From: Fimbriimonadaceae bacterium
GTDB taxonomy: Bacteria; Armatimonadota; UBA10988
Reading direction: 5' to 3'
DNA length: 64,000 nucleotides
Assembly: GCA_020850355.1 (NCBI GenBank)
Contig: JADZEX010000072.1
Location: 1-64,000, forward strand
The position numbers and the translations under genes were made by a program. Positions 49,083 through 58,265 of this stretch are shown one piece after another (position 1 is the stretch's first letter; each line of letters begins with the position of its first letter). The notes under the pieces were generated by a model. That model was not told where the DNA came from, made no database searches, and saw only the letters and a list, made by a program, of their open reading frames with translations.

Positions 49083-51449
49083 ATGAGTCGTGCCAAGTCC
49101 GGAGGCGTCCCGCGCCTGCCGGTGCTCCCAGTGCATGATGGGCTGGTGGTCTTCCCGAACCAGGCGCTGCCCCTTTACGTCGGCCGGCCGGCCTCGCTGC
49201 GGGCCGCCGAGGCGGCCATGGAGCGCGACCGCCTGCTGCTGGTGGTGGCGCAACAGAACCAGGACACCACCGACGTCGACCCCGAGCCCGGCGCGCTCTA
49301 CCGGGTCGGCTGCCTCTGTCGCGTGCTGCAACTGGTGCCCCTGCCCGACGAGGCGATCCGCCTGGTGGTCGAAGGGCTGGAGCGGGTGCGAGTCACCCGT
49401 TACCACCGCGGCGCGGCCTGTCTCGAAGCCCACGTCGCGCTGCTCGGGGAACCCGTTGCGGCGGTGGCGCCCGAGGACGTGGTCCGCGAACGCGCCCTGG
49501 TGCGAAGTGTGCGCGAGGCGTTCGAGGAGATCTGCGAACTCGGCAAGGCGGTACCGCCCGAAGTGGTCGGTCACCTGCTCAGCCTCGAAGAGCCCGACCG
49601 GCTGGTGAACCAGATGATCCCGCACCTCGGGGCGCCGGTCGAAGCCAAGCAGCGCCTCTTGGAGACCCTCGTCGTCAGCGATGCGCTGCTGCACCTGCGG
49701 CTGCTGCTGGAGCGCGAGGCCGAGGTGCTGCGGATCGAGCGAGAGATTGAAAACCAGGTCCGCCGCGAGGTCAGCGACTCCCAGAAGGAGTACATCCTGC
49801 GCGAGCGGTTGAAGGCGATTCAGAGCGAGTTGGGGCAACTCGGCAGCGACGACGTGGCCAACTTCCGGGAAGCCATCGCCACGCGCGGACTGTCCGAGGA
49901 GGCCACCGAGAAGGCCAACAAGGAGCTCGCCCGGCTGGAGCACATCCCGCCCAGCTCGCCGGAGTCGGTGGTGATCCGGACCTATCTCGAAGCGTTGCTG
50001 GAGCTGCCCTGGAACGAACGCACCACCGACAGCCTGGACATCGCCGCCGCGGAGGGGATTCTGGAAGAGGATCACCACGGCCTGCGGGATGTCAAGGAGC
50101 GGATCATCGAGTTCCTGGCCGTGCGGCAGTTGCGGCAGCAGGCCAAGGGGCCGATCCTCTGCTTCGTCGGCCCGCCTGGGGTGGGCAAGACCTCCATCGG
50201 CAAGTCCATCGCCCGCGCGATGGGCCGCAAGTTTGTGCGAGTTAGCCTGGGCGGCGTGCGCGACGAGGCCGAGATCCGCGGCCACCGGCGGACCTACATC
50301 GGCTCGTTGCCCGGCCGGATCATCCAAACGTTGCGCCAAGTGGGGGTCAAGAACCCCGTCTTCATGTTGGACGAGGTCGACAAGATTGGCACCGACTTCC
50401 GCGGCGACCCGGCCGCAGCGCTCCTCGAGGCGCTCGATCCCGAGCAGAACAACCAGTTCAGCGACCACTACCTGGAAGTGCGCTTCGACCTGTCCGAGGT
50501 GATGTTCCTGCTGACCGCCAACCTGCTCGACACGATCCCCCCGCCGCTGCTCGACCGCATGGAAGTGATCGAGTTCGCGGGCTACATCGAGGACGAGAAA
50601 CTCGCCATCGCCCGCGACTACCTGCTGCCGAAGCAACTGGCCGAGCATGGGCTGAGCGGCGCGCAGCTCACCTGCACCGATCCGGCGCTGCTGGCGATCA
50701 TGCGGGGTTACACCCGCGAAGCGGGCGTGCGCAACCTCGACCGTACCATCGCGCGGGTCTGCCGCAAGGTGGCGCGTGAGGTGGCGGCCGGGCGGGCCAG
50801 CAGTCAGCGCGTCGGACGCTCGCGGCTGGAGCCGCTGCTGGGCCCGCCGCGGTATGTGCCGGGGCACGAGAAGGAGCAGCGCGACACCATCGGGGTGGCC
50901 GCCGGGCTGGCCTACACGGCGACCGGCGGCAGCCTCTTGGCGATTGAGGTGGGCGTCGTCCCCGGCAGCGGCGAGCTGCGCCTGACCGGGCGGCTGGGTG
51001 AGGTGATGAAAGAGTCGGCGCAGGCGGCGCTGACCTACGTCCGCAGCCGCGCCGAGCGGCTCGGCATCAACACCGACATCAAGCAGGTCGATCTGCACAT
51101 CCATGTGCCCGAGGGTGCCACCCCGAAGGACGGCCCCTCGGCGGGGGTGACGATGACCGTCGCCCTGGCGTCGGCGCTGGCGGCGCGGCCGGTGCGGCGG
51201 GAGGTGGCGATGACCGGCGAGATCACCCTCCGTGGGCGCGTGCTGCCGGTAGGCGGCATCCGCGACAAGGTGCTGGCCGCCTACCGCCACGAGATGAGCG
51301 CGGTGATCCTGCCCGAAGACAATCGCAGCGACCTGCAGGAGGTCCCCACGAGGGTCCGGCGGGCGCTGACGATCCACTTCGTGCGGCACATCGACGAAGT
51401 GCTCGAGCTGGCCCTCGCCACCAGCACCGGCGACGCTACGGGCGGCTGA
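49083..51449 (+). CDS. lon: ATP-dependent Lon protease
   Basis: A 788-residue AAA+ serine protease that degrades damaged and regulatory proteins in the cytosol. The N-terminal LON domain begins [20 protein letters not shown]; Walker A GPPGVGKT starts at residue 363; Walker [14 protein letters not shown] follows. The protease domain has catalytic S686 in KDGPSAGVT and K729 in [12 protein letters not shown], the normal Lon dyad. The length fits the LonA family. The 3' end overlaps the convergent ketosynthase-like gene by 14 bp, so the two units meet tail to tail. Confidence 0.97.
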
Positions 51450-52470
51450 CGGTCAGCCGCAGTTCGCCCCCCGCGCCGTCGTCGGCCCGCAGGCGGACGG
51501 CATCCAGGCCGCGGTACCAGTACGGCTCACCGCGCGACTCGCGGCTGCCCTCGCCGCCGCGTACCGGTGGCACCGTGCGGGTCGCCAAGGCCGCCAGCGC
51601 GGTCGCCGCGGCCAACGCGCCGGAGGCGCCCCAGCACTCGCCGTAGAGCCCTTTGGGCGCGGCGCAGAGGGCGTCGTGCGGGCGTGGTGCGGTGCCGTTG
51701 GCGTCGCACAAGATCAGGTCGGCGGGGCGCGGCGCGAGGTCCAGCAGGCCACGGATTCGGGCCCCCCGGGCCGTCGCGCGGGCGAGCGGTTCGAGCAACA
51801 GCAGGCCCGCCCCTTCACCCAGCAGCAGGCCCGCGGTGGCAAACGGGTCGTGCTCGTCGGGGTCGTCGGTCGGGTCGTACTCGGCGCGGTGCGCGGCCAG
51901 CAGTTCGGGCGACAACGCCTCGGCGCCGCCAGCCAGCAGCGCGTCGGCGTGGCCACAGGCCAGCGCCACCAGCGCGGCGTGCAGCGCCAGGCTGCCGCTG
52001 GCGGCGCCGGCGGTGACCGTGGCGTGGTGGCCGCGGAGGTGGAAGTCGATGGCCAGCAGGCTGGCCGGCGTGTTGGCGAAGGCGTGCGTGAAGAGCACCG
52101 GCGTCGCGAACTTGACCCCGCGCTGCCGGACCCGCGCCGCGTAGCCGGCGGCGGTGGTGCCACAGCCGTAACGCGTGCCGAGCACCACGCCGGCGCGCTC
52201 CTCGGGGCAGGGCAGGGCGTCGAGTCCAGCATCGTCAAGGCACAGCTTGGCGGCCGCCAGGGCCAGTTCGCTGCAGCGGTCGAGGTAGGTCTTCTCGGCC
52301 ACCAGGTAGTCGTTGACCTGCCAACCGACCAGCTCGGCGGCCAGCAGCGTCGGCTCGTGCGACCAGGGCCCCAGCCCGCTGACGCCCTGCGTGACGGCCT
52401 CGGCGAACGCCTCGAAGCCGCAGCCAATGGCGCTGACCACGCCCACGCCCGTGATGGCCACCTGCGTCAT
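51436..52470 (-). CDS. Ketosynthase-like protein without catalytic residues
   Basis: A 344-residue thiolase-fold protein of the beta-ketoacyl synthase family (VAITGVGVVSAIGCGFEAFAEAV). Aligned with the intact ketosynthase next door, the active-site cysteine is A156 (TVTAGAASGS), the first histidine is D256 (CDANGTAP) and the second is E278 (YGECWGASG). It is also shorter than the partner's 383 residues. It therefore cannot catalyse condensation; the best analogue is a chain-length factor of type II polyketide or aryl-polyene systems. The ATG overlaps the partner's stop (ATGA), so they are translated as a pair. It is the last gene of the nine-gene unit. Confidence 0.85.
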   Translation of the reverse strand: MTQVAITGVGVVSAIGCGFEAFAEAVTQGVSGLGPWSHEPTLLAAELVGWQVNDYLVAEKTYLDRCSELALAAAKLCLDDAGLDALPCPEERAGVVLGTRYGCGTTAAGYAARVRQRGVKFATPVLFTHAFANTPASLLAIDFHLRGHHATVTAGAASGSLALHAALVALACGHADALLAGGAEALSPELLAAHRAEYDPTDDPDEHDPFATAGLLLGEGAGLLLLEPLARATARGARIRGLLDLAPRPADLILCDANGTAPRPHDALCAAPKGLYGECWGASGALAAATALAALATRTVPPVRGGEGSRESRGEPYWYRGLDAVRLRADDGAGGELRLTVSRP

Positions 52471-58118: not shown

Positions 58119-58236
58119 CTTGCCTCCCTTCTACCGTCTCTCGGACAGCCCCGCCGCCGACCTGCGCACACCTCGGCACAGACCGTCTCGGGCCAGGCTG
58201 GCAGACCGCCGGGAGCCGGTTGCTGGGTAGCGCCTC

Positions 58237-58265
58237 ACTATAGGCTGCTGCCCGGCGGGTGTCAA
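58237..58265 (-). promoter_or_regulatory. Promoter of the DHH-to-ketosynthase operon
   Basis: TTGACA (58265-58260), a 17-bp spacer and TATAGT (58242-58237): the best sigma-70-type site in the window. The leader to the DHH start is about 110 nt and GC-rich. No comparable promoter is evident in the short or overlapping gaps between the nine genes that follow. Confidence 0.8.

Follow-up and report, generated by a model that had tools for sequence, protein, structure and literature searches.

A nine-gene operon in an Armatimonadota genome combines an RsbW/RsbV-like pair with a ketosynthase and its Cys-less partner

An operon of nine genes, all on the minus strand and running from position 58118 down to 51436, brings together an RsbW-like kinase and an RsbV-like STAS protein (a partner-switch pair), the DHH, UPF0173 and MBL-fold hydrolases, and a set of lipid genes that includes a ketosynthase (KS) and a chain-length-factor-like partner (CLF). 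It lies in the window, by which we mean the whole stretch of 64,000 nucleotides analysed here (positions 1 to 64,000 of contig JADZEX010000072.1, our C76), taken from a Fimbriimonadaceae bacterium with an Armatimonadota draft genome of 6.67 Mb (G000). The operon is real and unusual, and it is a novel combination of known parts. Taken as a whole, it is best explained, in a reading that we hold with middling confidence, as one operon in which two older units were joined: a partner switch whose output would be the MBL-fold hydrolase, and a lipid half whose remaining partners would act in trans.

Gene content and promoter

Open reading frame and profile searches confirmed the families of all nine genes, which are given below in the order of transcription after the promoter.

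58237..58265, minus strand: sigma-70-type promoter TTGACA-17-TATAGT at the operon start, an 11/12 match
57192..58118, minus strand: DHH/DHHA1 phosphoesterase, 308 aa, with NrnA-like motifs (Pfam DHH and DHHA1, slightly below cut-off)
56515..57201, minus strand: UPF0173 metal-dependent hydrolase, 228 aa (NCBIfam PRK00685, 275 bits, cut-off 144)
56066..56518, upstream starts possible to 56629, minus strand: RsbW-like serine kinase, HATPase_c_2 (Pfam PF13581, 88 bits)
55741..56076, minus strand: RsbV-like STAS protein with a phosphorylatable SSAGL motif (TIGR00377, above cut-off)
54768..55724, minus strand: MBL-fold hydrolase (MBL318), 318 aa, with an RNase Z / cyclic-nucleotide phosphodiesterase-like fold (model pLDDT 91)
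54372..54764, minus strand: acpS, synthase of the holo form of the acyl carrier protein (ACP) (TIGR00516, 102.8 bits, cut-off 59.8)
53615..54358, minus strand: fabG-type 3-oxoacyl-ACP reductase (TIGR01830, 284 bits)
52467..53618, minus strand: KS with its Cys-His-His residues intact (profile matches and orthologue alignment)
51436..52476, minus strand: CLF, a chain-length-factor-like dead ketosynthase with its active-site Cys changed to Ala and its C-terminal half shortened

Overlaps join DHH to UPF0173 (-10 bp), UPF0173 to RsbW (-4 to -7), RsbW to STAS (-11), fabG to KS (-4) and KS to CLF (-10), and short gaps separate STAS from MBL (+16), MBL from acpS (+3) and acpS from fabG (+13). The initial annotation, which had described nine genes running in one direction with gaps of at most 16 bp or overlaps, is thus borne out in every family and junction, and its pairing of a partner switch with a ketosynthase and a catalytically dead partner in one operon is supported.

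Its promoter assignment was confirmed as well. TTGACA-17-TATAGT is the sole promoter found in 51300-58500 (expected 0.2), and an 11/12 site stands directly upstream of the DHH gene in 5/5 genomes of the order, the relatives having TTGACA-17/18-TACAAT. No further 11/12 sigma-70 site was found in 429,570 background bases of G000 and its relative G001, which makes the operon promoter unusually near consensus for this genome.

Conservation of the operon

Four relatives from the same order were compared with G000: G001 and G002, which are other genera of its family (one not known to have a cultured member), G003, and G004 from a sister family. All are draft genomes, and few members of the order were available. 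G001 and G002 hold 9/9 genes in identical order. G003 holds 8/9 and has neither the STAS gene nor room for it; there (L037:7422-8842) RsbW, which is divergent (37 %), overlaps MBL directly. In the sister family, DHH, RsbW, STAS and MBL are followed by one unrelated gene of 507 aa and then by acpS and fabG, with UPF0173 absent and KS-CLF located elsewhere. The DHH and KS frames of G002 are broken (L036:4622-5596, 8748-10144), through assembly error or real decay.

The order is thus kept in three genera and partly in the sister family, and internal promoters of at least 9/12 are absent from the operon in G000, G001 and G002; G003 has a single weak 9/12 site ahead of acpS. Two observations had been named in advance as speaking against the operon, namely an order conserved in no relative and internal promoters that split the regulators from the biosynthetic genes; since the order is conserved and G000-G002 show no such split, neither was made.

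A more mundane account would see here housekeeping genes that share no function, are strung around the essential acpS and keep their order only through close kinship. It can point to the single copy of acpS, to a near-consensus promoter of housekeeping type, and to neighbours outside the operon (NifS, cyclase and PD40 genes) that are kept too. Against this, when our 103 kb contig is set beside the 67.6 kb contig of G001 and the smaller contigs of G002-G004, only 51436-64606 is collinear, a conserved-synteny island of 13 genes. At a protein identity of 51-72 %, the G001 contig shows no further collinearity anywhere in the 103 kb; the promoter, moreover, persists in the sister family too. We consider this account unlikely. 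Conservation of the operon exceeds chance on three independent grounds, which are gene order, isolated collinearity and the promoter.

The lipid half belongs to a phylum-wide cluster

Orthologues of the KS occur in 48/291 Armatimonadota genomes (49 with the frame-broken copy of G002) and stand clearly apart from FabF. In a tree, KS and CLF form one well-supported clade each across the phylum. The catalytic residues follow the expected division of labour: C141 of the KS is present in 25/25 orthologues and H274 and H311 in 24/25, the remaining one being a gap, while the catalytic Cys is present in 0/25 CLF sequences, whose structure model keeps the thiolase fold (TM-score 0.86 to FabF). In one family, CLF homologues are only 198-211 aa long, half a ketosynthase, and keep the YL..KTYLDR motif (L044:521-1117, L045:17162-17797). 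The possibility that the KS is simply the housekeeping FabF was ruled out, both by E-values (< 1e-130 for KS orthologues in 48 genomes versus ~1e-90 to 1e-118 for FabF) and because G000 has two other FabF/ACP sets. These further ketosynthase-ACP sets are located at L266 (C65) and L267 (C19), and one of them adjoins transketolase-like genes.

Outside the family, KS and CLF have a different setting. The outgroup cluster comprises a lipoyl/E3-binding protein, acpS, fabG, a secreted esterase-like protein, KS, CLF, E1alpha, E1beta, GT2 and ACP, and continues with two alpha/beta hydrolases and further glycosyltransferases, although the gene set varies between clusters (L215, L229, L218, L227, L051, L282, L285). 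Among the outgroup loci that we fetched, CLF adjoins KS in nearly all, and E1alpha, E1beta, ACP, GT2, lipoyl and acpS genes are present in many; fabG adjoins acpS or KS in outgroup families as well. In two genomes, a cluster gene has an N-terminus that, read by eye, looks like that of a MurJ-type flippase. Judged by these sequence comparisons, the lipid half of our operon belongs to this phylum-wide Armatimonadota lipid cluster, whose glycosyltransferases suggest that its product is probably a phylum-specific glycolipid-like compound. The operon thereby leads to an undescribed cluster of lipoyl, acpS, fabG, KS, CLF, E1alpha, E1beta, glycosyltransferase and ACP genes.

The components that the operon lacks are found elsewhere in G000. 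An ACP orthologue (G000:C1:24259-24546, E=4e-29, motif GVDSVE) adjoins a probable glycosyltransferase, E1alpha is encoded at C21:183513 (60 % identity), E1beta at C21:162056 and the lipoyl protein at C34:22820. ACP is missing from the operon, then, because the lipid cluster is dispersed in this genome and ACP is encoded in trans. AcpS itself has a single match in G000 and, as the sole copy found, has to supply fatty-acid synthesis too, unless the genome holds a transferase of the Sfp type. We accordingly rejected acpS as a pathway-specific transferase, it being the only AcpS-type enzyme found (Sfp-type transferases were not searched for).

This distribution also bears on how the two halves might be connected. 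The initial annotation had suggested that the kinase/STAS pair might act directly on the lipid enzymes (here KS, CLF, FabG or AcpS) or on a distant sigma factor. An expected shared transcript, and genes that overlap or nearly touch in four genomes, agree with the first of these. Yet ~44 other Armatimonadota genomes have KS-CLF but not these regulators, and G004 retains the regulators with KS-CLF located elsewhere. Neither fusions of RsbW or STAS with lipid enzymes nor independent neighbourhoods of the two were seen, whereas MBL-STAS fusions were. Direct action on the lipid enzymes therefore fares poorly, and we regard it as very improbable.

The regulatory half and its candidate output

The E and N of the RsbW N-box are kept in 5/5 orthologues of the order, and Ser53 and Ser54 of the STAS motif SSAGL are invariant in 4/4. 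The earlier statement that the operon includes no sigma factor, phosphatase or ACP holds for the operon itself, where SpoIIE phosphatase domains (PF07228) have zero matches, but not for the genome, which encodes seven such matches in addition to the ACP in trans.

These features would suit a canonical partner switch, in which RsbW holds a distant alternative sigma factor and STAS frees it, the lipid genes being co-expressed neighbours only. This is the best-known use of an RsbW/STAS pair, and the conserved N-box, the conserved STAS serine and the SpoIIE matches in trans all fit it. On the other hand, none of the five genomes has a sigma factor inside the conserved block, there are non-canonical STAS systems for which no sigma target is known (PMC8256260), and the MBL-STAS fusions indicate another output. 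We regard a distant sigma factor as possible, if on the doubtful side.

That other output is suggested by relatives of the MBL hydrolase in other phyla. In Chloroflexota metagenome-assembled genomes (MAGs) the family is fused to STAS (L082:10001-11329, L085:7863-9167), and a Desulfobacteraceae MAG holds an MBL-STAS-RsbW-SpoIIE cassette with MBL first (L111:10001-14425). Across 79 relatives, 12 STAS/RsbW/SpoIIE matches lie within 2.5 kb of the MBL gene versus 1 farther away (p ~1e-5); four of the counted loci had trained the STAS profile, and without them the counts are 7 near and 0 far. Since these phyla show the family either fused to STAS or next to STAS-RsbW-SpoIIE, we count the MBL gene among the regulators. 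From such associations, the MBL hydrolase appears a likelier STAS partner than the lipid enzymes, and an interaction of STAS with MBL is the best-supported candidate for the output.

As to what the enzyme might act on, a search with the structure model returned YhfI, RNase Z and PhnP as the best PDB folds, along with Apyc1 and yeast PDE1, and the fold group takes in cyclic-nucleotide phosphodiesterases. An attempt to read the substrate of MBL318 from its neighbours across phyla gave a mixed picture, with no consistent partner except STAS.

The DHH protein falls just under the Pfam cut-offs (24.8 versus 28.1 and 23.2 versus 25.9 bits) and has no NCBIfam match; its motifs (D-x-D, D, DHH, D, R, GGGH) are nevertheless all present and invariant in four orthologues. 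Among the 291 Armatimonadota genomes its orthologues are confined to this order, plus one weak match. AcpS releases 3'-phosphoadenosine 5'-phosphate (pAp), and NrnA-type DHH enzymes hydrolyse it (PMC6609329, PMC8268124), so the DHH enzyme may clear this by-product of AcpS, which suggests a reason for a DHH phosphoesterase to sit with acpS. Cyclic di-AMP is an unlikely main substrate: of the five genomes, G001 alone has the cyclase domain PF02457, which G000, G002, G003 and G004 lack.

Proposed mechanism

We propose that, in the common ancestor of an Armatimonadota order or family, two older units came together under a near-consensus promoter of housekeeping type. DHH, UPF0173, RsbW, STAS and MBL would form a partner switch accompanied by phosphoesterases of the metallo and DHH types. 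In this switch RsbW would phosphorylate the STAS serine and trans-encoded SpoIIE phosphatases would remove the phosphate; free STAS could then bind either RsbW or MBL318, the likeliest direct output, and so set phosphodiesterase activity. The products of acpS, fabG, KS and CLF would provide condensation, reduction and carrier activation for a phylum-specific pathway of acyl or glycolipid type: KS/CLF with FabG would extend an acyl chain on the trans-encoded ACP, with E1alpha/E1beta of 2-oxoacid-dehydrogenase type and the lipoyl carrier contributed from elsewhere in the genome, and the pAp released by AcpS would be cleared by the DHH enzyme. Coupling between the halves would come mainly from co-expression on the shared transcript. 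In its most specific form, a sigma-less switch in which unphosphorylated STAS directly gates the MBL phosphodiesterase and co-transcription ties acyl-chain synthesis to a nucleotide signal, the proposal is speculative and rather improbable.

Several observations weigh against the joined-unit explanation. The G1 box of the window RsbW reads DEAPPF, so that its Gly is lost and DxGxG is not intact, whereas D-x-G is kept in the relatives; given this altered box, the activity of the kinase is uncertain. In other phyla the majority of MBL318 relatives lack a STAS neighbour, the DHH protein is related to NrnA only distantly, and E1alpha and E1beta lie ~20 kb apart in G000 rather than adjacent. Nor is the coupling of the halves obligatory, since G003 has the operon without STAS and G004 has KS-CLF elsewhere and lacks UPF0173.

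Comparison with known systems

The initial annotation knew of no described pathway with this combination, and our literature search likewise found none: no operon uniting partner switching with acyl-carrier genes came to light, nor any paper that combines KS-CLF with E1/lipoyl genes. The individual parts are more familiar. With RsbV/RsbW and SpoIIAA/SpoIIAB, the pair shares a HATPase_c_2 kinase with an E/N N-box, a STAS protein with the SSAGL serine, and overlapping genes. It differs in that the operon has no sigma factor or phosphatase, that STAS is lost in one relative, that the G1 box of the window kinase is altered, and that MBL, UPF0173 and DHH hydrolases share the transcription unit; the likeness is one of working alike, not of strict membership.

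Partner switches inside biosynthetic loci, with targets not known, have already been described, as with SypA/SypE of Vibrio fischeri and HmpUVW of Nostoc (PMC8256260). Theirs is a polysaccharide locus, while ours combines KS/CLF, FabG and AcpS with a metallohydrolase family that is elsewhere fused to STAS. Several STAS systems still lack an assigned target, and here the MBL-STAS fusions offer a concrete candidate, which could be tested in laboratory strains.

Armatimonadetes are already among the phyla listed with KS-CLF (PMC10132072). As in type II polyketide systems, an active KS adjoins a Cys-less, KS-like partner, alongside FabG and a dedicated ACP; by analogy, KS and CLF would be predicted to form a heterodimer that makes a chain. 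In contrast to those systems, the CLF has a shortened C-terminus and the outgroup cluster adds E1alpha/E1beta/lipoyl genes and glycosyltransferases. With a plasmid collection as reference, KS matches reach at most ~40 % identity to plasmid-borne KS and CLF has no match. Such matches were insufficient to place KS/CLF among characterised type II polyketide synthases, and the tree shows separate clades only.

The two phosphoesterases are similarly removed from their nearest known counterparts. The DHH protein shares with NrnA and pAp phosphatases the DHH, DHHA1 GGGH and metal-binding motifs, but its sequence is distant, its gene is found in this order only within the phylum, and its activity on pAp or nanoRNA is putative. 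MBL318 shares the fold and the HxHxDH metal motif with RNase Z, YhfI, Apyc1 and PDE1, and differs in its identity of only ~15-20 %, a family-specific N-terminal stretch before GGNTTC, and its association with STAS. For relatives of the UPF0173 protein structures have been solved, TM_1162 among them.

Genes upstream of the operon

The remaining genes of the synteny island lie upstream of the operon promoter; they are collinear in G001 and partly so in G002 and G003.

58328..64000, minus strand: NifS, TPR-class III cyclase and PD40/TolB-like genes (Pfam)
beyond the window end, to contig position 64606: fourth conserved upstream gene, 202 aa

Within this conserved block the class III cyclase is close to the MBL-fold phosphodiesterase, which hints at a cyclic nucleotide.

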